Assembly: GCA_903813345.2 (NCBI GenBank)
Contig: CAIIXF020000005.1
Location: forward strand, 31,437,375 to 31,501,374
Direction of reading: 5' to 3'
From: Owenia fusiformis
Taxonomy: Eukaryota; Annelida; Polychaeta; Sabellida; Oweniidae
Length of the DNA: 64,000 nucleotides
In this document: positions 3,970 through 40,560 of the stretch, piece after piece
How positions within the stretch are numbered: the first letter of the stretch is position 1
Layout: each line of letters begins with the position of its first letter
Notes under the pieces: generated by a model
The model's input: the letters and a program-made list of their open reading frames with translations, nothing else
Told to the model about the DNA's origin: nothing
Database searches by the model: none
Position numbers and translations under genes: made by a program

Positions 3970-5607
3970 CACCCTGGGTATAGTCTGTCACGTGACTTCA
4001 TGGATGACGTGTGCGCGAGTGATTCGCATTTTCTTTCGCTTGAGGTTTGTAATCACACTTTTTACATGTTTTAAGATTTTGTATCTCTGTGAAACTTGTC
4101 CCGTACCATCAATGTCTGAAGACGATCTAATTCACCAAATATCTCATCCAAGCGTGTCCCGGTTAAAGAGAAATTCGCACTTTTGTGTCTCGCAAAATGA
4201 CGTGTGCGCGAGTAAATCGAATTTTACGAAGGATGGGTGCGCGAGTCTAACATATTTTTATTCACTTGAGACAATTCTGCAAGCTAAGGCAGAATACAAC
4301 TCACGTGACATTTGTTTTTGTCATCTTAAAGTAGTATGTTAAAGAATAGTTTGCTATTTTGTAGATGTTTCATGTATGGCACATACATGTCTACGTTTAA
4401 TGACAATAAATGTTTTGAAATAGCTTGTAGGGCTGTCCGGCATTGCAGGTGAATTAAAATTTGAACCAAAAATTGAATTAAATTTTTGGCGGTCTCATAA
4501 AACCGGCAGCATATTCATTTATTGACATCCCATACAAGGGGGGGTCAGAGTTGTTATGTGGTTACTCGGCATCCGCCACGATCAGAACCATGTAAGGAAT
4601 AGTAAGGGGAAGCCCATGATACCAAGTAATATCAAATAATTATAGGAGCTTCTAACTTCTTCCGCATCCCCACCCTTGGTATACGCAGCTGACAAAATGG
4701 ATCGGTACGGGTCAAAAGCTGGACCGGTACGGGTTAACGGTTTTATTTGAATTTAAAACAGCTATCACTTGCTCAATATTGACTTCTTCGTATCTAAGTT
4801 GAAATATATGATCCCTCCGAATGATTTTAAGTACCCCCAAAGTTCACCCGTACAGGTCCAGCTTTTGACCCATACCGGTCCATTTCGTCAGCTGCGTATA
4901 CCAAGGGTGGGGATGCGGAAGAAGTTAGAAGCTCCTATAATTATTTGATATTACTTGGTATCATGGGCTTCCCCTTACTATTCCTTACATGGTTCTGATC
5001 GTGGCGGATGCCGAGTAACCACATAACAACTCTGACCCCCCTTGTATGGGATGTCAATAAATGAATATGCTGCCGGTTTTATGAGACCGCCAAAAAATTA
5101 ATTCAATTTTTGGTTCAAATTTTAATTCACCTGCAATGCCGGACAGCCCTACAAGCTATTTCAAAACATTTATTGTCATTAAACGTAGACATGTATGTGC
5201 CATATGAAACATCTACAAAATAGCAAACTATTCTTTAACATACTACTTTAAGATGACAAAAACAAATGTCACGTGAGTTGTATTCTGCCTTAGCTTGCAG
5301 AATTGTCTCAAGTGAATAAAAATATGTTAGACTCGCGCACCCATCCTTCGTAAAATTCGATTTACTCGCGCACACGTCATTTTGCGAGACACAAAAGTGC
5401 GAATTTCTCTTTAACCGGGACACGCTTGGATGAGATATTTGGTGAATTAGATCGTCTTCAGACATTGATGGTACGGGACAAGTTTCACAGAGATACAAAA
5501 TCTTAAAACATGTAAAAAGTGTGATTACAAACCTCAAGCGAAAGAAAATGCGAATCACTCGCGCACACGTCATTCATGAAGTCACGTGACAGACTATACC
5601 CAGGGTG
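3970..5607. mobile_element. Large foldback element with ~765-bp near-perfect arms
   Basis: The left arm 3970-4735 and right arm 4844-5607 are almost exact inverted copies with a ~108-bp AT-rich spacer. The ends read CACCCTGGGTATAGTCTG and the element is flanked by TACAG (3965-3969 and 5608-5612). The outer part repeats GTGCGCGAGT three times per arm. The same 112-codon open frame occurs in both arms simply because the arms match; it resembles no family I know and I do not call it a gene. The arms are far longer than in usual MITEs. Confidence 0.9.
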
Positions 5608-27281: not shown

Positions 27282-28707
27282 TGTGACGATCGTGGGTCGT
27301 CATTTTTATGAATGAAAATCTGAAGTCCTTTTATACAATAAGATATGATATATATAATAAATCGAACTTATATCAGTGATCAAAGTTACCCCTGTAATGT
27401 AAAGAAACGATAAATTATACGTAAATGACATGAAGTCTAGTATAAAAATGAGAAAACTTACAAAATGTCCCGAGAAATCTTTAAAATTGGTTTCTTCTGC
27501 TCTGACCGGAAGTAGATTATTAATGGTGAAACGAAATCAAAACTTATGAGAAGCGTTCAGCTGTTTCTGAATATTTGATAATGTTGCAATTAAATGCAAG
27601 GATGGTAAATGATTTATTAGAATATAATTGTAGCTTTAATTTGGAGTAAATAAGTAAAACTAGTGATATATAGATTATTTCCGTTCTGCAAAAAGTTTGC
27701 CATTATAGAAGCGCGAAGTTTGAATATGACGTAAAACAATGGTTTGGATTCCTATATAAGTCCGTGCCCTGGTTACGACCGCCATTCTCGTGAAGAATCG
27801 GAAACCACTGACAAGACTTGTGGTAAGTTAGCCGAGCTAGCCATTTTAGCCGACTATTGAGCTATTGTAAAGGTATATTAGCCGACGGTGCATTCTCCCT
27901 CTATATTGGGTTGTTCTAGGGTTACGATTAGCCGATTGTTTTGGAGTTTAGCCTGGTGTTTAGCCGGAAATTCCACAACATTAGCCGGCCGATCAGGGAA
28001 ATTAGCCGAATCTCTGGGTCAATTCAGTAGAACAGAGCAATTAGCCGAATTGTGTTGATTAGCCGAATTGTGTTAATTAGCCGAATTGTATTCTATATAT
28101 TTCCAGGTTTAAGGTTATGTTATTCTTGGTTAGCCTATTGAAGCACACAAAAAGTCTTCATGGTAGCTCAATCAAGTGATTAGCCGAAACAAGTTGCTGA
28201 ATTCTAATTGTTATAAACATTGTTCTGCTAGCCGAAAGAGTTAGCCGAACATTATAAATAATCCTGTTAGCCGAAGCTGGTTAGCCGAACTTAATATCAT
28301 AAACAACCCTGTTAGCCGAAGAATTAGCCGACAGATTAGCCGACGAATTAGCCGACAGATTAGTCGACGAATTAGCCGAATTTATTAGCCGAACCATTAG
28401 CCGAAGAGAGTTGTCATTGTTCATGAAATATTGGATCACAATCTATTGAATTAAAGTGAACATTGACACTAAATATATTCATATAGTAAACATACCAATA
28501 AACATTCATTTCATTAACGTATTGGTGCATCTTTATGGACTATCGTGCTTAATAAATATTAACTTAATTCTCTAAAACACGTAATATTTCAGATCGTATT
28601 TATTGTAATTTATATGTGTATTAATAAAGTTTAATAACCGTAATAGTGCTTGTTTGTCACTGAAAAGACCACTGAGTAATAAATAGCAAGTATATATATA
28701 TGCTACA
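27282..28707 (+). repeat. 5' LTR with TTAGCCGA array
   Basis: TG...CA ends. TATATAAG box at 27753-27760, so transcripts should start near 27785. A donor-like GTG/GTAAGT lies just before the array, about twenty TAGCCGA motifs spread irregularly over 27828-28404, and an AATAAA (28623-28628) lies near the end. The array is therefore in the transcribed R/U5 part. Confidence 0.92.
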
Positions 28708-28710
28708 AAG

Positions 28711-28728
28711 TGGTGGCAGTGGTGTTTG
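28711..28728 (+). other. Candidate primer binding site
   Basis: TGGTGGCAGTGGTG lies 3 nt after the 5' LTR. It begins with the TGG complementary to a tRNA CCA end and resembles Ty3-type primer sites. I cannot name the tRNA. Confidence 0.5.
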
Positions 28729-28874
28729 ACTATCTCACGGCCTGCACTACCAGATTGGTTGTTGAGCAGTTGTTAAAAAAAGTGACTGTTTTAGTACATC
28801 GGTTATTTTTCTTATTTACGCATTGTGTATTTAATTGCATTTAATTGAAAACATTTATATATTGAATACGTACA

Positions 28875-30602
28875 ATGGTAGAGGCATACGTAGAGCCTAC
28901 CGATAGTGGAGAAAAGAGTTCTAAAGAAACACCAGAGGTTATTTCATTCAGGGACTATGATATAGAAGAGAATTCACGAGAATCACGTGTTCATCTTGTA
29001 CGTAAACCACGAGTTGTTAGCGCAAACGACCCTGGTTTGCAGTCGACGTTAACATGTTCTGGAAAAGGCGATGGCGACGTCGTTTATTCTGATAGCAATA
29101 AGGAAAATAATCATGATGATGGCGATCAAGTACACATAAATCAACCTACGGGTACAAAAAGGAAAATACGGTTTCACATTAATCAAGAAGAATGCGATGA
29201 GTGTGGGGTGAAACCTATTGGATGGTCAATCGATCGGCAGTCTGCTACAGCGTCGTCTGTTAGAGATGCCAGGTGTGGTGAGCCGAGAGTTACAGAAGTT
29301 AATGACTCTGAGAAGGGTGATTGTCTCAATTCAATCAGTGGAATTGATCGTCGTGAGACATTACCATCGGATGTTATTGGTTTTGTGCGGTCGGAGCGAG
29401 CCGTACGCGTAATTGATAGGGCGGGGCCCGATGGTTCAGTAAAGTCAATTATTAAATCTAATTCCTCAAACGTTTTAGATCAAGATGAGATAGTTGAGTC
29501 AGTAGACGGTAATCAGCGGTATCTCGAAAATTCTGCAGTGTCAATCGGCCCGGCTGACGGTCTGTCACACGGTGGACGATGTATATCCAGAGTGGCAGAG
29601 TCAGGGTCAATGAGTGGGATCTCGGCAAAGAGAAGTCTTGTAAATTCAAATACTAATGAACGTCGACGATTCAGTGCTTGCTCGGAAAGTAAGCTGGTGT
29701 CGGATCCGAATGGGAGTGGTGATAAAGGTGTTGTTCAACAATTGATGGAACGTATATTAACGTTAGAAAGTAAATTGGAACAGAGAGCAGGTCGCGACTG
29801 CCGTTCTTGTGATAACAATGTAGATGATGTAACTGCGAGAAACAGTGGGACTGAAAGAAGCAGCGAGTGCACAGATTTAATATGTTTAGCTGATGATGTT
29901 GCTAAAAAGAGGGGGGATATTTTTGTAGGGGGGAGAGAACTTGTTTCTGGTGAAAAAGTTAAGAATGTCAATGGCCAGGCTGTTTGTGGGAATATGGCTC
30001 GGCAATTGTCTAGTGATTTACATGGTCATCCTTTGACAAGTGTTAATGGTCACAATTCGAATGAAAATTCAATGACGAGAAATGAAAATCGTGATGTATC
30101 TTCGGGAAATGAGATGCTTTCAAATAATGAAAATCCAGTTCCATTATATAATGCAACTGCTGTATATCCATCTGGCAACAAGCAGAAAGTGAAGCCTGAT
30201 AAATATGATGGTCAGTCTGTTAGTTGGAGAGACTGGTTGATGCATTTTGAATCATGTGCAGTTATAAATAATTGGGATGACAATGGGAAAGCAGCACATC
30301 TAGTAGTTAGTTTAAGCGGTGATGGTTCTGGTGACGATGAATGCAGGGATGGACAGGGTGATGGCAGTGAGAGCAGTGGTAGTAGTAGTGACAGTGATGG
30401 TAGTAGTGGGGACAGTGATGGTAGTAGTGGGGACAGTGATAGTAGTAGCGGTGAAAGTGATGGTAATAGCGGTAGTGATGAGGACAGTTGTAGTGTAGGG
30501 AATGTTGTAGACAGCAATTTGAACACTAAGGACGTTGCCTGTCAGGCAAGACTACAATGGGATAGACCAGAGACCTCTAATAGAAATTGTATTATATTGT
30601 AA
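28875..30602 (+). CDS. Gag-like protein of the LTR element, truncated capsid with Ser/Asp tail
   Basis: 575 codons starting MVEAYVEP, 168 bp after the 5' LTR. The first ~430 residues are hydrophilic and low in recognisable domains, apart from a short heptad-like segment (VVQQLMERILTLESKLEQ, about 287-304). At about 440-480 comes the typical start of a Ty3-like Gag capsid: KPDKYDG, SWRDWLMHFESC, NNWDDNGKAAHLVVSLSG. The capsid breaks off there and is followed by a Ser/Asp/Gly-rich tail (about 483-535) of GDSDGSS-type repeats. No CCHC knuckle and no pol follow; the last residues end CIIL. This looks like an internally deleted autonomous element whose remaining frame stayed open. Packaging in trans by a full-length relative is inference. 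Confidence 0.85.
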   Translation: MVEAYVEPTDSGEKSSKETPEVISFRDYDIEENSRESRVHLVRKPRVVSANDPGLQSTLTCSGKGDGDVVYSDSNKENNHDDGDQVHINQPTGTKRKIRFHINQEECDECGVKPIGWSIDRQSATASSVRDARCGEPRVTEVNDSEKGDCLNSISGIDRRETLPSDVIGFVRSERAVRVIDRAGPDGSVKSIIKSNSSNVLDQDEIVESVDGNQRYLENSAVSIGPADGLSHGGRCISRVAESGSMSGISAKRSLVNSNTNERRRFSACSESKLVSDPNGSGDKGVVQQLMERILTLESKLEQRAGRDCRSCDNNVDDVTARNSGTERSSECTDLICLADDVAKKRGDIFVGGRELVSGEKVKNVNGQAVCGNMARQLSSDLHGHPLTSVNGHNSNENSMTRNENRDVSSGNEMLSNNENPVPLYNATAVYPSGNKQKVKPDKYDGQSVSWRDWLMHFESCAVINNWDDNGKAAHLVVSLSGDGSGDDECRDGQGDGSESSGSSSDSDGSSGDSDGSSGDSDSSSGESDGNSGSDEDSCSVGNVVDSNLNTKDVACQARLQWDRPETSNRNCIIL

Positions 30603-30675
30603 TAAAGGAAAATTGTAAATATGTTAAATATATATATTTATTCTTTTATGTTACAGATGTGAGGACACATCTCAT

Positions 30676-30692
30676 AAAGAAGAGGGGAGTAA
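30676..30692 (+). other. Polypurine tract
   Basis: AAAGAAGAGGGGAGTAA lies directly before the 3' LTR, the usual plus-strand primer position. Confidence 0.8.
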
Positions 30693-32118
30693 TGTGACGA
30701 TCGTGGATCGTCATTTTTATGAATGAAAATCTGAAGTCCTTTTATACAATAAGATATGATATATATAATAAATCGAACTTATATCAGTGATCAAAGTTAC
30801 CCCTGTAATGTAAAGAAACGATAAATTATACGTAAATGACATGAAGTCTAGTATAAAAATGAGAAAACTTACAAAATGTCCCGAGAAATCTTTAAAATTG
30901 GTTTCTTCTGCTCTGACCGGAAGTAGATTATTAATGGTGAAACGAAATCAAAACTTATGAGAAGCGTTCAGCTGTTTCTGAATATTTGATAATGTTGCAA
31001 TTAAATGCAAGGATGGTAAATGATTTATTAGAATATAATTGAAGCTTTAATTTGGAGTAAATAAGTAAAACTAGTGATATATAGATTATTTCCGTTCTGC
31101 AAAAAGTTTGCCATTATAGAAGCGCGAAGTTTGAATATGACGTAAAACAATGGTTTGGATTCCTATATAAGTCCGTGTCCTGGTTACGACCGCCATTCTC
31201 GTGAAGAATCGGAAACCACTGACAAGACTTGTGGTAAGTTAGCCGAGCTAGCCATTTTAGCCGACTATTGAGCTATTGTAAAGATATATTAGCCGACGGT
31301 GCATTCTCCCTCTATATTGGGTTGTTCTAGGGTTACAATTAGCCGATTGTTTTGGAGTTTAGCCTGGTGTTTAGCCGGAAATTCCACAACATTAGCCGGC
31401 CGATCAGGGAAATTAGCCGAATCTCTGGGTCAATTCAGTAGAACAGAGCAATTAGCCGAATTGTGTTGATTAGCCGAATTGTGTTAATTAGCCGAATTGT
31501 ATTCTATATATTTCCAGGTTTAAGGTTATGTTATTCTTGGTTAGCCTATTGAAGCACACAAAAAGTCTTCATGGTAGCTCAATCAAGTGATTAGCCGAAA
31601 CAAGTTGCTGAATTCTAATTGTTATAAACATTGTTCTGCTAGCCGAAAGGGTTAGCCGAACATTATAAATAATCCTGTTAGCCGAAGCTGGTTAGCCGAA
31701 CTTAATATCATAAACAACCCTGTTAGCCGAAGAATTAGCCGACAGATTAGCCGACGAATTAGCCGACAGATTAGTCGACGAATTAGCCGAATTTATTAGC
31801 CGAACCATTAGCCGAAGAGAGTTGTCATTGTTCATGAAATATTGGATCACAATCTATTGAATTAAAGTGAACATTGACACTAAATATATTCATATAGTAA
31901 ACATACCAATAAACATTCATTTCATTAACGTATTGGTGCATCTCTATGGACTATCGTGCTTAATAAATATTAACTTAATTCTCTAAAACACGTAATATTT
32001 CAGATCGTATTTATTGTAATTTATATGTGTATTAATAAAGTTTAATAACCGTAATAGTGCTTGTTTGTCACTGAAAAGACCACTGAGTAATAAATAGCAA
32101 GTATATATATATGCTACA
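30693..32118 (+). repeat. 3' LTR with TTAGCCGA array
   Basis: Same length as the 5' copy, with about 7 substitutions between them by eye. The TATA box is at 31164-31171 and the motif array at 31239-31815. One of the changes falls in the DNA between adjacent motifs (AAAGAG to AAAGGG), and none appears to abolish a motif. Confidence 0.92.
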
Positions 32119-32740: not shown

Positions 32741-32800
32741 TCATCAGGATCGTCGGAAATTAAGTCATTTAATTCGAATTTCCCAAACGATCTGGCGATG

Positions 32801-33257
32801 AATATAGTCCTGAGTAAGGATACTAGCGGTTACCGTTAGTGATTTGGTTTAATGTATAAAAAGTCATTTTTCTCCTTCCCTACCCCATCAGAGCGCCATC
32901 TGGCGTTTGGTAAATGAATCGTGGCTCAATATTTATAAGGCAGGTCCTCATTTATCTAAAAACATGTCAAAGTTGAGTGGGAAATCTCATTTTAAGTTGG
33001 CGGCGGAGTGATTTTGACTTTGGTGATTTTACCAGAATTTTTCTGAAAAACCTGACTATAGAGGGGGTTAGTGTCTTCAAATCAATTTATCTCAAAAATT
33101 CGGTGGACAACCCATGGTAATATTGTTACAGCAAGCTAGGTAAGTCTCTCCCGGACAGTGTGGTATGTTACACTAGGCCTGGATACTAATATTTAATAAG
33201 ATATAGGGTAAAATGTTATAATGGCCACCTATGGGAATTTCTACTGTGATCTTCAAC
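32801..33257 (+). repeat. Left ~457-bp terminal direct repeat
   Basis: The left repeat starts AATATAGTCC and ends CTTCAAC. It contains a hairpin (arms 32822-32830 and 32832-32840, one G/T mismatch), a second short palindrome CGCCA-TC-TGGCG (32894-32905), a TATAAAAA box (32855-32862) and a strong splice donor CTAG/GTAAGT with its GT at 33140-33141. TATA box, donor and downstream endonuclease gene share one orientation, so the repeat could supply promoter and leader exon. This role is inference. Confidence 0.85.
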
Positions 33258-33350
33258 CTATTATCGCCCACTAAAAAAGATGGTAAGATTTTTAATTCAT
33301 TTTTATTTCATAATTATTTCAAAATTTTCCTTAATTTTAAGCAGCACATC

Positions 33351-33728
33351 ATGAATCCGGACCAGTGGAAGACACTGTACAAAGCAAGAATTCAAGAGAG
33401 ATGTTTTTTAGGGGTCAATGGGCAGTGTTTATTGTGGGAGGGGTGTCTAGATTCATCAGGGTATGGGAGGATTAAAGTAAAAAAATTGGATGGGAGGTCA
33501 GTTTCAATGAGGGTTCACAGGGTTATGTATATGATTTCTCGGGATAAATTAGATTTAGATAGTACTTTAGATGTTTCTCACTTGTGTCACAATAGTTCTT
33601 GTATTAATCCAGATCACTTAGTTTTAGAGGGGAGGGGGGTCAATAATGGTAGGACTGCATGTGTTAATTATGGGGTGTGTTTGGGGGGTCACGCGCCTTT
33701 GTGCATGATACATCTCTATATGTTCTGA
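33351..33728 (+). CDS. His-Me finger homing-type endonuclease (I-PpoI / zf-His_Me_endon family)
   Basis: A 125-residue protein beginning MNPDQW. It shows the whole I-PpoI-type core: C26/C32 with LLWEGC, GYGRIKV (37-43), HRVMY (56-60), SHLCHNSSC (76-84), NPDHL (86-90), NNGRTAC (98-104), C110 and GGHAPLC (112-118). By analogy with I-PpoI, H77 is the general base, N98 or N99 binds the metal, C26 or C32 with C79, C84 and H89 hold one zinc, and C104, C110, H114 and C118 hold the second. The frame is open upstream to 33231, but the extra 40 codons are AT-rich and unlike a protein, and they contain a donor-like GATG/GTAAGA (33283) and an acceptor-like TTTTAAG (to 33341), so I start at 33351. Its stop meets the 3' end of the opposing transposase. 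Such enzymes cut DNA site-specifically; a role in mobility of this unit is inference. Confidence 0.85.
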   Translation: MNPDQWKTLYKARIQERCFLGVNGQCLLWEGCLDSSGYGRIKVKKLDGRSVSMRVHRVMYMISRDKLDLDSTLDVSHLCHNSSCINPDHLVLEGRGVNNGRTACVNYGVCLGGHAPLCMIHLYMF

Positions 33729-35913
33729 GAAGGTAGGCACAATAACAATAACTACTCTTCTCAAAATGTAGTTCTGTAGAATACATGTAGTAATAACATA
33801 CCTTCTTTCCCTTTGCTGCAGCATATGCATGATCTTTTAACTCTGGCCTGTTTGCACACCCCTGCCTTGTTAACCTTACTTCATCTAATTGATTCTTCTT
33901 ATATTCTTGTTTCTTCTCTGATGACTTCATTTTGCAGTATTGATTTAACTGTACCGACCGATGGTATCTACGCGCTTTCTTTGCGGATGTTGTTTTTTTG
34001 TATTGCTTTCCATAGTCAATGTCTTTTTGAATTTTTTTCAGTTCCTTTGCTGCGCGGGAGCCAGCTGATACTGGAGCACCAACACATTGAAGCATCAGGT
34101 GAGTTCCATTTGTTGCCCCCCTGTTAAGTTGCATGATTGCACTGGACATTCTACCCGAAACCGTCGAAGGAAAGACTCTATTCTTGGGTAAAACAGTTGA
34201 TAGAACATGGTTCGCGCTCTCATTTTTATTTGTATGGGTGTAAAATTTGCCGCTAGCAAGGGCTTCTGGACCTAATCTCATTTCTATCAGAAGGCGGAGA
34301 TACATTTCATCATTTTTCTTGTCCATATTTATGTCAGTAGCTTTGAGGTTGCAAGCCTTTAGATTGTAAGAGTTCGTCCACCAGTTGTTGCTCCTCCTCC
34401 CCTTACATTCATTGAGGTCTTGCTTACAGAGTGTATGGTTTCCTTGGTAACATTGTATCAGAGAATCAGTGATTTTGATGATTTTGAAAGTGGAGACTTT
34501 AGAGAGGTCCCTATCAGTGAGGGAAAGTTTGCGAAGGATAGCGGTGCATCTTTGGGTTAGGTCAATACAAAATAGGCGCTGATAGTGTTCTTTAGTTGAC
34601 TTGTTTTTTCCCGGAAACATCTGACTTGAAAATGAGGTCTTTAGGGAGTGCTTGAATTGGAGATTACTCAAGTGAATGCGGTCGCTGAGGCGCTCTGCTC
34701 TGTGTTCCATTCCTGTCTCTGCATAGTGATCATTGACTCCCATGATTCCCTTCCCATCTCCATCTGTTGTGAGGTACTGAATAACAATCCCGTCTTCCTG
34801 GCATGTCTTTGCTGTAGATCGACCCATTTGACGTTCTTTGAATGACGCTGCTTTCTCGATGGTTGCTGTGCAGCCCTCATGCCCCCCTGGGCACTTAACA
34901 TCGAATCCCCTTGCACGCATATACGAACCCCTCCAACAAAGTTTATTTTGAAGAACGGCATCAATGATTACAAGATTTTCTGTCATGGTTTCAACAGTTA
35001 ACCCTATAGCCCTGTTGGCATCTGGACCAAGTTTGTTTCTAGAGCCAAATTTTACGGAACCATATTGAGCATCAAATGCAGCGGCTATTTTATTTTGATC
35101 TTGTTCAGCTACACCTCTCATTTTATTTATTTCCTTGAGATTTTGTCTTAGCTTGCTCATATCTTGTTGACAGAGTTCTGTTATTCTTTCATCTACCTTT
35201 TTGCTTGTTTGAAACATATGAGTTTTACTTGGGGGTTTGATATTTAGGGCAGCAAAAATTCTTCTAACTTGCTTGGAATCAATGGAAGATTGCTTAAGTG
35301 CTACCTGTAATGCAACATTTGTCTTTGCTGGTCTAGGGCCCTTGATGTTACCTTTGTAATAGCTATTGTCTACTTCATCATATGTTTTGTACAACTTTGA
35401 TTGAAAATGGCAGGATGAACAAGCAAACTTTAATTTTGTGCCCAAACCAAATGAAGCGATTCGTGATATATTATAGTTCCCTTCACACGCGATACTATGT
35501 TTTCTGTGTTCATTGTTTAAATCGTTTATCATGATAAGTGTTTGCGCCGTACTCACGATAATACAGTCATTCGGTGTCGCACCAGGAGGTGCTTCGGCCA
35601 TGGTGTTAGTGAGATCTGCTTTCCGGCTTTTGCACGGTCTTAGCAGGCGGGCATTTCCAAAGTTCATATTCACATCGAGATTCTCATAGCGTTGATTATC
35701 ACGGCTGGTTGTAGCGACATTCCGGAATGTATCTTCATCAAATCTCTCGATTGTGTCCGGTATGGAATGGGAATGATCCCCTGAAAAAGGTTTAGATTTG
35801 GTAAATGGTTTGATGTGTGCATGTCCTTTTGTAAATCTTGACTTCTTACCAGCAGGACTTTGCCTTTTCTTGTAAGCCAATCCTTTATGTGTACTACTTA
35901 AATCTCTTGACAT
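33716..35913 (-). CDS. Mutator-like DDE transposase
   Basis: A large protein starting MSRDLSSTHKGL with a basic N-terminal region, a zinc-ribbon-like CSSCH (residues 165-169) after FGLGTKLKFA, then an RNase H-like core. Candidate catalytic acids are D281 in FDAQYG, D384 or D386 in TDGDGKG, and E565 in NKNESANH followed by LPKN. This order and motif style match the Mutator-like family annotated in many bivalve proteins. A second Cys/His cluster, CPGGHEGC, lies between the first two acids. The frame is open upstream to 35973. Near the 3' end a consensus donor AAG/GTATGT (exon end 33802) and acceptor CTTCTCAG (exon start 33724) would remove a 77-nt intron and stop at 33716-33718. Without splicing the frame continues antisense to the endonuclease gene to 33664. 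The splice model is inference. Confidence 0.8.
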
Positions 35914-36243
35914 TGTGTAATATGTAGTATATCCAAATTGAAATAACACACAGATATATTTGCCAGAAATCACTTTATTTCAAATCCTCTCGGGACAAAC
36001 TGATTCAATTTGTATTGATCATTATGACATCATAGTTGAAAGTTGAAATTGAGAAATTGAAAAAACTAATACAATAGTTACCAGACTAATACAATAGTTA
36101 CAAGAAATGGAAAGCATTGCTAGTTATTAATCTGGTCTATGTATGCATGCTATGAAGAGCTTTTATCTCATTTTTTTTAATCTTAAGCTCATTGGCATGC
36201 ATTGGTAGATATTTATAATATTATCTCTATATTACCTCCCTAG

Positions 36244-36365
36244 ATTCCTGCATCTAGACAGACCCTGAAGCCAGAACATGTTGCCAGAGTCTGTTTTGCC
36301 AGAGTGTACATCCAGAGCCTTGCAGTTAGAGAGGCCATTGGCAGTAGTACATTTTTATACAACAG
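36244..36365 (+). other. Exon-like open segment inside the direct-repeat element
   Basis: A 122-nt segment with acceptor-like TTACCTCCCTAG before it and donor CAACAG/GTAGGT after it. One frame is open for all 40 codons with a balanced, protein-like composition (includes KPEHVARVCFARVYIQ). A second ATG-bearing segment ending AAAG/GTAGGC follows after only 36 nt, which is too short for an ordinary intron. I do not recognise the protein. It could be a third gene of the element, a captured host exon, or chance. Confidence 0.3.
36351..36358 (-). promoter_or_regulatory. Candidate TATA box for the transposase gene
   Basis: TATAAAAA on the minus strand lies about 440 bp upstream of the chosen start. 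It is the best TATA match in the 35974-36959 interval that would hold the transposase promoter. The support is weak. Confidence 0.3.
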
Positions 36366-36959
36366 GTAGGTTTGAGAATTTCTTCATTTTCTGCATTATA
36401 GATGTCACCTGCTTCTGAAATCATTGATGCTGCAGAATGTAAAGGTAGGCTTAATTATGGAGCAATAGGACCACATATGACAACATATAATATTGTTTTA
36501 CCTAATTAGGCTTTTTTGGTGTGTGTCAACCTTGCATAATATCCCTCCATTCCGTCTCCTGTGAAATTCAGTTTTCAAGGGCAGTTTTGAGTGTAACTTT
36601 TTTGTAAGGGCAATTGTGACGTCATAATATATTAGCAAATGCCCAAAAATGGGCATTATTATAAAGGTGAGTAAAGGACCTTTCCATTGATACCCTATAT
36701 GACTATATTCAACTTGATTAAGTGTAAGGAAACATCTCCCAAATTTACATGGTGCACCCCTACCCCAAAGAAAATACAAGATATTTCGTTACCAAAAATA
36801 TATGAATTTAGCTTAAAGGACCTGTGCCTTTAAATATTGATTTCCCCCCTTGTATTGGCTTCAATATAGCATTGTCATATATCATTGTGTTCAGAAAAAT
36901 GCCAAGAATAAAAATAGCACCATTTTGAAGAAAAACAAACAAAATGGTTGTACTATTAG

Positions 36960-37416
36960 AATATAGTCCTGAGTAAGGATACTAGCGGTTACCGTTAGTG
37001 ATTTGGTTTAATGTATAAAAAGTCATTTTTCTCCTTCCCTACCCCATCAGAGCGCCATCTGGCGTTTGGTAAATGAATCGTGGCTCAATATTTATAAGGC
37101 AGGTCCTCATTTATCTAAAAACATGTCAAAGTTGAGTGGGAAATCTCATTTTAAGTTGGCGGCGGAGTGATTTTGACTTTGGTGATTTTACCAGAATTTT
37201 TCTGAAAAACCTGACTATAGAGGGGGTTAGTGTCTTCAAATCAATTTATCTCAAAAATTCGGTGGACAACCCATGGTAATATTGTTACAGCAAGCTAGGT
37301 AAGTCTCTCCCGGACAGTGTGGTATGTTACACTAGGCCTGGATACTAATATTTAATAAGATATAGGGTAAAATGTTATAATGGCCACCTATGGGAATTTC
37401 TACTGTGATCTTCAAC
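36960..37416 (+). repeat. Right ~457-bp terminal direct repeat
   Basis: The sequence is identical by eye to 32801-33257 and in the same orientation, with the same TATA box (37014-37021) and splice donor. In this position the promoter would read out of the element into flanking DNA. Perfect identity implies a recent insertion, or both copies made from one template. Confidence 0.85.
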
Positions 37417-37770
37417 CGATGTTGACACTTAGCCTCGTTTTGAGTCTGAAGTAGCAAAAATCCATAAACCATCGCATACGACGTCGTATGTCATGGCTAA
37501 AAACCGTATGCTATGGTTAAGTGAAAACTTGTCAAAAATATCATATTTTACCACTGATTACAAAAATACCGTTTTTATTTTCACATGTTATCCTATGAAT
37601 ATCATGCTAACTATGGAATAAGACCTTATACCATGGTCGAGAGCAATATATCTAAAGTCCTCTGTTGAATGAGAACAAATGTTTGACTCTCAGGAATATT
37701 TAAGTTCCCGCTCTAACATACATTGAGAATTTGTGAAAAAAGAAAAACGTGATACTTTAAAATATATTGA

Positions 37771-40560
37771 AAAATGAAAATGATTTTTAAAGGTCTTTGT
37801 TGCCTTCGTAAATATAAGGGAAAGGCTACTCATTTAGCTTTCCTGGACGTATCAAAAGCGTTTGACGTGCTAGACCGCGATACATTGTTCTGCCACTTAT
37901 GGAACAAAGGAATCCAAGGAAAAACTTGGAGAATTCTACATAAATTGTACGCTAATGCACAAAATAAAGTAATTTTTGGTAATTTTGAAACCGATCATTT
38001 CGACAGTCAGTATGGTCTCAAACAGGTATGTAATCTATCCCCGACACTGTTTTCTATTGTTATGACTGACCTTATTGATATGATTAAAGCTAGAGGATTA
38101 GGCATACGTTATGAAAATGCTTATCTTCCCGCCTTATTATTTGCAGACGATGTAGTATTGATAGCTGACTCAGAAGACGAACTTCAGGAAATGCTCAATA
38201 CTACATCGTCCTTTGGAATAAAATGGGGCTTAACTTTAGTAAAAAGAAATCCAAGGTCATGACGATAGGGAAAAGAATGAATACTAACAAGCAATGGTTT
38301 CTTGGTAATGCTGCAATTGACGAAGTAAAAACATACAAATATCTTGGAACCTTTGTTGATAATCTACTCCATGACACATCTCACATTAAAGATTATGTTT
38401 TTAAAAAAGCATGCAAAATCAATTCTTATATGCGATATGTACTTGCCAAACATAACAATGTCAACAGGATCAACTTTGGTCTAAGTATTTATAATTCTAT
38501 GTTTACACCAGCCATTACACATGGTTGTGGGGTATGGTGTGTTAATAAGACAACTACAAAAATACTAAATTCCCTCCAATATAATGCTGGAAGGGCAATT
38601 TTGAATCTAAAGTGTAAACCGGCTACATGTGCTCTTTTGGCAGAATTAGGCTGGGAACCATTAACTACAAGCATTGAAAACATTTACAGATCAATTATTT
38701 TAGCTACCTTGTAAAAAATGATAGGAATGATCTTTTAAACATTGTTTTTCAAAGTACAGGGTGTTCCATATGTTTCAGGAATGATGCTGTATTTTATTGG
38801 TTTTCTTTTCAATCTAGCTGATATTTTGGCAAAATGTGTCCAAATATGTTGTAAGTAAATTGGAAAAGTTTCATATCATGAAACTCAGTAGACTGAATAA
38901 TATGGTTGCTGTAGTAACCTAGGGGTAGGGTAGGTGGAGCAGGTGTAACAACACGCAAAATATATGAAATATTTGTAAAAATAGTTTTTTTGTATAAAGT
39001 GTTCAAAGTATTAATTTGTCATAGTCGCATCAAACTTGTTGGAAATTAAAAAGAATAAAGGTGTTTTCCTTGAAATTAAAAATGTTATCACACCCTTAAT
39101 TAGCCATCATCATTATTTCAGCATCTATCCCTTCCACATTAGTTAGCGCTCTCACTGTTCTCGGATGTCCGCATTTTGGATAATCGGTCTCAGTTTCCCT
39201 TCCAGATTTTAACCACTTGTACCACTCATACACTCTAGAGGTTACCATCATTGAGTCCCCATATGCATTCGTCAGGAGTTAATTGTGTCTGCTGCAGAAA
39301 ACTGTTATTCACACATGTCATATCTTGTCACAGATTGTTGTATGTTGCCTAAGTCGAAGGTTTTCCTTTGCTAATGACTTTTTCACTTTTCAAGATGGCC
39401 GCTCGTCCAAAATGACCTGTGTTTATTCTCCGTTGTGACTCATGACATGACAGGTGTTTAAATTGTGATGTGATCAAGGGTGATGACATTTTTTTTACTT
39501 TCCTGGAATCCACCTTCATTTTTGTTTAATTACTGACAAGTTTGATCCAACTCTGAAAACCTAATACTTAGTCACACTTGGTACAAAAAAAACTATTTTT
39601 ACAAATATTGCATATATTTTGCGCGTTGTTACACCTGCTCCACCTACCCTACCCATAGGTTACTATAGCAACCATATAATTAGGACTACTGAACTTCACG
39701 ATATGAAACTTTCCCAACTTATTCAAAACATGTTTAGACACACTGTGTCAAAAATTCAGTTAGATTGAAAAGAAAACCAATAAAATATAGCATCATTCCT
39801 GAAACATATGGAACACCCTGTATGTTAGAACACCATAGGCTTAATAAAAAGTTGTGTTGGCCAAATATGAGAAACATCCACTCAATTATGAAAGATAGAG
39901 GACTGGATGATGTCATGTTCAGACCTAACACTTCCTGGATGAAGACATATAAAGCAATCACAAATAGCCAAATGAAAACTGATATATTTAAATCAATAAA
40001 CGTAAAATCCTCACTAAACGTTTATAAACATGTTAAAACGAATTGGTGTCTTGAACGTTACATGCACATTTCAAATGATTTTAGACTCGCTGTTTTAAAG
40101 TTTCGAGCTAGGACAGGATGTTTCATGGTTGGTGCAGACTTGAAAAGATGGGGCCAAGGTGATGGATTATGCAAATTTTGTAATTCAGGGATTGATGATC
40201 TTTCCCACCGCCTACTGTTATGCCCATATTTCACCTCCCATCGTTCTGTCTTATTTTCTAACTTAAAGAGTGCACTTGAAGGCAATAATGAACATGTTTT
40301 TAACCATTTTATATCTCTTAATGTTCAGAGTAAATTACAATGGCTACTGGGCAATGATATACATAGTGTTTATGGGCACGAGATTGAAGTTTTAGTAGAT
40401 AGAAGTATCAAACAATTTTTATCTAATGCATTTGTTTTACCCTAATCTCAATGATACCACAAAATGAATATGTTTTGTATTTTATGTACATTTTTGTAAG
40501 AGCACCCAGTATTGGTGTGCCACCGTTTTAAAGGTGTAATAAATAAATAAATAAATAAAT
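37771..40560 (+). pseudogene. 5'-truncated non-LTR retrotransposon (LINE) ORF2, frameshifted and interrupted
   Basis: The reverse transcriptase part starts in 37774-38262 with FLDVSKAFD, QYGLKQ, NLSPTLF and the catalytic FADD (LLFADDVVLIAD). A frameshift near 38225 moves the frame to 38223-38714 (KKSKVMTIGK, YLGTFVDN). A second shift near 38700 precedes a mariner insertion at 38757-39820. Coding resumes after it and ends in 39765-40445 with a C-terminal knuckle CKFCNSG...H...C typical of LINEs. The 3' end is an AAATA/AATA run (40538-40560). No endonuclease domain is present, so the 5' end is truncated. The clade cannot be fixed by eye. Confidence 0.88.
38757..39820. mobile_element. Mariner-type element inserted in the LINE
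   Basis: The ends CAGGGTGTTCC and GGAACACCCTG are flanked by TA (38755-38756 and 39821-39822). The terminal inverted repeats are long, roughly 240 bp. The interior holds a decayed minus-strand piece of mariner transposase near 39100-39235 reading VYEWYKWLKSGRET with a later PKCGHPRT, the N-terminal DNA-binding part. No catalytic core remains, so the copy is non-autonomous. Joining the flanks across one TA keeps the LINE frame open (FQS then MLEHH). Confidence 0.88.

Follow-up and report, generated by a model that had tools for sequence, protein, structure and literature searches.

The transposon and its two genes

The window analysed here, a stretch of 64,000 nucleotides from contig CAIIXF020000005.1 of the annelid Owenia fusiformis, carries at positions 32800-37417 a transposon made of two long terminal direct repeats (LTDRs), each of 459 bp and 100% identical to the other (0 mismatches, direct orientation), around a 3700-bp internal region (INT). 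The INT encodes a DDE transposase and an I-PpoI-like nuclease, whose genes lie on opposite strands, tail to tail, and run towards each other. An earlier note on this DNA had placed a transposase and an I-PpoI-type nuclease in one mobile unit between identical direct repeats of ~457 bp. This description held, with a corrected repeat length, and corresponds to the architecture of KolobokP, described in 2022 by Kojima and Bao with the same gene pair in seven animal phyla (PMC9587614, cited throughout from the part of its text that was accessible). As this architecture is already published, neither the gene pair nor its end repeats can be called novel. A literature search with the name 'KolobokP' returned no other paper.

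The window unit is very probably a complete-looking autonomous KolobokP DNA transposon, inserted by its transposase. It displays the gene pair in the expected orientation, LTDRs within the KolobokP size classes (~450 or ~660 bp), a short target-site duplication (TSD) and, on the transposase strand, GG...TC ends that agree with the 5'-RR ... YY-3' ends of the family. Solo LTDRs, multimers and the loss of LTDRs with retention of a single short terminal repeat, further traits of KolobokP, were also found and are described below.

The nuclease open reading frame (ORF) matches the Pfam family zf-His_Me_endon (PF05551) at 33351-33725 on the + strand (E 4e-14, 53.4 bits for a cut-off of 27) and the solved I-PpoI chains (best E 1.4e-6). 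Its alignment with I-PpoI is gap-free over SH(98)...H(110)...E(114)...N(119), in the numbering of PMC9587614, and places S76, H77, H89, E93 and N98 of the ORF on I-PpoI S97, H98, H110, E114 and N119. Eight candidate zinc-binding Cys and His residues were picked by eye, namely C26, C79, C84 and H89, and C104, C110, H114 and C118. A possible in-frame mini-exon upstream of the ORF, also read by eye, comprises an ATG at 33280, a GT donor at 33283 and an AG acceptor ending at 33344. Six homologues were found in the protein collection, all with PF13392 and two additionally with PF05551, and relatives at 21 loci on viral contigs, with 30-41% identity, were judged distant. The AlphaFold model, based on seven sequences, had a mean predicted local distance difference test (pLDDT) score of 45.8 and was not used.

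On the - strand, the transposase matches the Mutator-like transposase family PF20700 over residues 124-503 (Pfam, E 1.1e-46); 'Mutator-like' is the Pfam label only, the published class being Kolobok. Besides its own record, 10 homologues from the protein collection were aligned (28-32% identical), and the invariant positions in all 11 sequences are D281, C326/C341/H345/C348, D384 or D386, D411-xx-H414, C488/C496/C503 and E565. Assigned after PMC9587614, these are candidates for the DDE, DxxH and zinc-finger roles, and they reproduce the motifs of the Kolobok superfamily: a C/D-xx-H motif, a zinc finger between the second D and the last E, and the CCHC finger that follows the first D in some lineages. 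A possible splice donor at ~33801, seen by eye, may alter the last residues of the protein. No transposase relative was detected among 14 stretches from viral contigs, and phage records gave no match.

The three other INT ORFs, of 93-104 aa, have no Pfam match above the curated cut-off, and Rfam and tRNA scans of the window gave no match. The best match to the I-PpoI site within the LTDR, scored without a control, covers 10 of 15 bases. The coordinates of the element are collected in Table 1.

Table 1. Parts of the KolobokP-type element in the window
Feature	Positions	Strand	Basis or remark
Left TSD, GAT	32797..32799		25 of 29 two-ended insertions read agree in a 3-bp register
Left LTDR, 459 bp, GAATATAG...CTTCAACC	32800..33258	+	Perfect repeat; solo copy L024 shares its ends and has its own 3-bp TSD
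Left joint TATTA, first INT bases	33259..33263
INT, 3700 bp	33259..36958		Lies between both LTDRs
I-PpoI-like His-Me (His-Cys box) endonuclease ORF, 125 aa	33351..33728	+	PF05551; I-PpoI chains
DDE transposase ORF, ATG at 35913	33664..35913	-	PF20700 at about 34405-35544
Right joint TATTA, last INT bases	36954..36958
Right LTDR, 459 bp	36959..37417	+
Right TSD, GAT	37418..37420

Copies, target duplications and joints

The element was compared with its own genome (498 Mb, 525 contigs). A 19-base pattern taken from the LTDR start, with up to two mismatches allowed, has 587 matches genome-wide and 4 when read backwards. The window family includes a solo LTDR on C2 (L024), 99.6% identical to the window LTDR and flanked by its own ATA duplication, a truncated autonomous copy on C8 (L049), 98-99% identical, and further fragments on C3; among the copies fetched, only the window copy has both genes and both LTDRs. 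A sibling family in which no genes were recognised, and whose LTDRs are ~90% identical to those of the window, occurs as monomers, solo LTDRs and arrays, and multimers were seen in this family only. As read from these copies, the ends of the transposon are the ends of the LTDR, since the solo L024 and the complete copies of the sibling family stop at the same bases; the boundaries thus coincide with the direct repeats, as had been proposed.

If the transposase recognises the LTDR ends, as we infer, a solo LTDR, a monomer or an array would each count as one insertion. Of 29 insertions read at both ends, among them the window copy, 25 have identical 3-bp flanks directly outside the LTDR; shuffling of the right flanks gave on average 3.1 such matches in 29, and never more than 11. 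This count leaves out the truncated or one-ended L049, L063, L098, L102, L103, L105 and L107; for L079 the position of the right flank was chosen by eye, and L104, one of the 25, matches at 5 bp. By this comparison, most insertions carry 3-bp target duplications, at differing sites. The CGATG noted earlier on both sides of the element is indeed present, but not as a 5-bp duplication: given a consistent 3-bp register across the 29 insertions, it is read as GAT plus two bases matching by chance. The suggestion that the endonuclease takes over some of the transposition chemistry is likewise not supported: most of the insertions read show 3-bp duplications of the usual kind, and their sites differ. 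Should the nuclease play a part, the joints in the arrays point to the local recombination of modules.

LTDR and INT modules are separated by short joints. Read by motif in the sequence fetched, with intact flanking motifs required and spacers of 0-30 bp allowed, all 117 joints are exactly 5 bp long and 105 of them are TATTA. They comprise 42 LTDR/INT joints (33 TATTA, 8 TAATA, 1 TATAA), 50 INT/LTDR joints (all TATTA), 22 INT/INT joints from five loci (19 TATTA, 3 TAATA) and three LTDR/LTDR joints from two loci, on C9 and C11 (all TATTA). This count missed at least one TATAA joint, visible in two places. Because a motif reading would miss ragged joints, whole modules were also aligned at the array and monomer loci of the sibling family, where 150 of 151 joints consist of full modules with a 5-base spacer, overlapping loci counting some joints twice. 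The spacing of LTDRs is in line with this arrangement: among the 100 of 587 matches listed, the 72 spacings below 12 kb between neighbouring LTDR starts all fall within 10 bases of 463 + 600b (b = 1 in 53, 2 in 14, 3 in 4 and 6 in 1), the values expected if each interval holds an LTDR with its joint (463) and b copies of INT, each with a joint of its own (600).

At these joints the 3-bp register breaks down, as TTA precedes the LTDR and TAT follows it (TTA-LTDR-TAT). Since the joint is also longer than the TSD, the joints would not be fresh transposase target duplications, and we infer that they are distinct from ordinary ones.

Arrays and a proposed recombination of modules

A long record of such joints is an array on C2 at 6.602-6.651 Mb (~49 kb), with 41 exact LTDR starts over 48.5 kb among the matches listed; one GAT duplication flanks the array as a whole. 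This KolobokP-derived array is satellite-like. In the parts read, its LTDR/INT joints are TAATA, its INT/LTDR joints TATTA, and its INT/INT joints TAATA three times and TATTA twice. As the INT/INT joints include both forms, at least two losses of an LTDR are implied, each taking exactly one joint along, on one side or the other. On C11, a single 3-bp duplication encloses the order LTDR-LTDR-INT-INT-LTDR-LTDR.

The modules of sibling-family arrays are found by alignment to share array-private variants. Between the six insertions compared, INTs differ at 4-20 positions, versus 0-5 within an insertion. LTDRs within one insertion show 0-3 differences (0-1 in five of the six, 1-3 in L054) and vary so little between insertions (0-4 differences) that growth in place is signalled mainly by the INTs.

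These observations can be arranged in a two-part mechanism. The transposase would spread the element with 3-bp staggers, while modules would be shuffled and amplified in place by recombination from joint to joint, a process of its own that the nuclease might trigger. An exchange between the joints on the two sides of a module would remove an LTDR, leaving INT-joint-INT, or reciprocally double it as LTDR-joint-LTDR, and unequal crossing-over would then multiply the recombined modules. The nuclease is a natural suspect for the cutter and may start this recombination by cutting at or near a joint; I-PpoI leaves 4-base 3' overhangs (PMC9587614). In its most specific form, in which the nuclease is a joint-specific shuffler that cuts TATTA joints, exchanges LTDR/INT with INT/LTDR to give LTDR-TATTA-LTDR and INT-TATTA-INT, and so turns a transposon into a selfish satellite, we consider the proposal distinctly unlikely to be the right one, worth stating as a conjecture.

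Several points weigh against this account as a whole, the KolobokP identity included. The nuclease is represented by one copy, and its action on the arrays would be in trans, as these belong to a sibling family without a recognised nuclease; its link to the joints is a putative one. Joints within an array mostly descend from a small number of events, and their counts repeat a shared history. At one LTDR/INT joint, in L098, the modules meet raggedly, a deletion having brought LTDR base 266 next to INT base 7. Four of the 29 insertions lack matching 3-bp flanks: L051, C1:13.35 (L056/L057; 4 bp, ATTA), L080 and L100. The TTAA-specific 4-bp TSD that is the rule of the Kolobok superfamily is not found, the TSDs being mostly of 3 bp and of many sequences. 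The inverted repeat within the LTDR is weak, with 9 of 18 positions paired, a value reached by 11% of random pairs, for a published LTDR repeat in KolobokP of 11-18 bp, perfect or imperfect (PMC9587614). No palindromes beyond chance were detected in the LTDR, the best values being reached by 99-100% of shuffles.

Loss of an LTDR could also be due to the transposase alone, as Kojima and Bao propose: the LTDR would leave together with a few bases beside it, perhaps in the form of an IS3-like circle; the nuclease would then act elsewhere, for instance inside the LTDR, or be dispensable. This explanation, to which we give somewhat less than an even chance, is consistent with their report that LTDR excision removes 1-5 flanking bases on one side and that INT-INT junctions lack 3-4 bp at either tip, and with the either-side choice of TAATA or TATTA in the C2 array. 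The LTDR-joint-LTDR arrangement could equally come from an LTDR circle carrying one joint and recombined into a resident LTDR. However, the published spacers typically equal the TSD in length, whereas most insertions in this genome have a TSD of 3 bp, and every joint read by motif (117 of 117) measures 5 bp. Host repair guided by the microhomology of the 5-bp repeats that close INT on either side, or slippage of replication between them, would need no element enzyme at the joints and is in our view somewhat unlikely. A 5-bp repeat could also guide ordinary repair of this kind: both INT ends of the window copy, and of most sibling copies that were read, have TATTA, INT/INT joints keep one copy of it, and the ragged joint of L098 indicates that imprecise events occur. 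Against such repair, the C2 array has different ends (TAATA and TATTA) and its products, where read, still have exactly one 5-bp joint, and the module alignments contain no ragged INT/INT or LTDR/LTDR junction (29 and 3 joints, overlapping loci counted twice). Direct repeats with a short TSD also resemble a long terminal repeat (LTR) retrotransposon, a candidate that was rejected because the five INT ORFs of at least 93 aa that were scanned have no reverse transcriptase domain and the LTDR ends are not TG...CA; since the gene pair recurs in seven animal phyla, the idea that a transposase and a homing endonuclease became nested by chance is, together with that candidate, extremely improbable.

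The two-part mechanism might extend to the choice of some insertion sites. The arrays on C7 (L051) and C1 (L056/L057) split one host repeat at the identical base, with AAAGTG(T/C)CATTA before the array and (T)ATTAGACAGTG after it. This host repeat is tandem, two of the four flanks giving Tandem Repeats Finder periods of 140-147, and the flanks hold four uninterrupted copies of the site, two CATTAGACAG and two CATTAGACCA. The LTDRs of the two arrays differ by 1 base and their INTs by 16 (including a 10-base length difference), and the 150 bases beside the arrays match in 136 of 150 alignment columns to the left and in 118 of 170 to the right. Given these module and flank differences, the arrays are taken as two insertions and not as one duplicated locus; both are among the four insertions without a 3-bp duplication. 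A nuclease cut may occasionally place arrays at joint-like host sites, such as this CATTAG repeat, a possible lead drawn from two cases.

The role of a homing endonuclease inside a transposon was left open in the accessible text of PMC9587614, and the evidence from arrays sharpens this question. This genome offers a candidate nuclease site, the 5-bp joint, a distinct mark of insertion, the 3-bp TSD, and long arrays as records of recombination. If the nuclease acts at the joints, the element itself would drive a route from transposon to satellite DNA.

Neighbouring features and known systems

An LTR element lies next to the KolobokP copy, at 27282-32118, with LTRs of 1426 bp (27282-28707 and 30693-32118) that are 99.5% identical and, by eye, TG...CA ends and a possible TAAG duplication. 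Its interior has a 575-aa ORF without Pfam match, Gag-like by eye, and no reverse transcriptase was recognised there; it is possibly a non-autonomous LTR retrotransposon. Many repeated TTAGCCGA units occupy 31402-31819 in its LTR. On the other side, at 37774-40442, reverse transcriptase pieces are spread over separate ORFs (PF00078 at E 1.8e-19; zf-RVT at E 0.0018, short of its cut-off). A long near-perfect palindrome, 95% self-complementary over 1647 aligned bases, is found at 3970-5607.

Like the KolobokP elements of PMC9587614, the window element has the order LTDR-INT-LTDR with ~450-bp LTDRs and a DDE transposase and an I-PpoI-like nuclease on opposite strands, and its family group shares with them short TSDs, solo LTDRs, multimers and INT-INT junctions that keep one short repeat (TATA in one published family). 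Solo repeats and multimers are on record for KolobokP, as are short TSDs (3-4 or 4-5 bp) that show no strong preference for a target. Unlike the elements described in that text, the O. fusiformis copies include LTDR-LTDR tandems, an array of ~49 kb enclosed by one TSD, and joints of 5 bp next to TSDs of 3 bp; these differences are set against that text, and the published families number 228. The main text of the paper nowhere uses the term 'LTDR-LTDR', and neither Table 2 nor Table 3 devotes a column to that arrangement.

The nuclease resembles I-PpoI, the homing endonuclease of a Physarum group I intron, in its His-Cys box, in the aligned catalytic H and N and, by eye, in its zinc-site residues; unlike I-PpoI, it is encoded in a transposon and not in an intron, and its ORF has 125 aa versus 163 aa. 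The oyster satellites CgiSat13 and CgiSat16 (2414 bp) are likewise satellite repeats labelled DNA/Kolobok, their membership in KolobokP not being stated in the accessible part of PMC8268682. Bacterial composite transposons and IS3/IS26-type elements also have two terminal repeat units, each proposed to be mobile alone; in contrast to these, KolobokP keeps its transposase in the interior and not in the repeats (PMC9587614).

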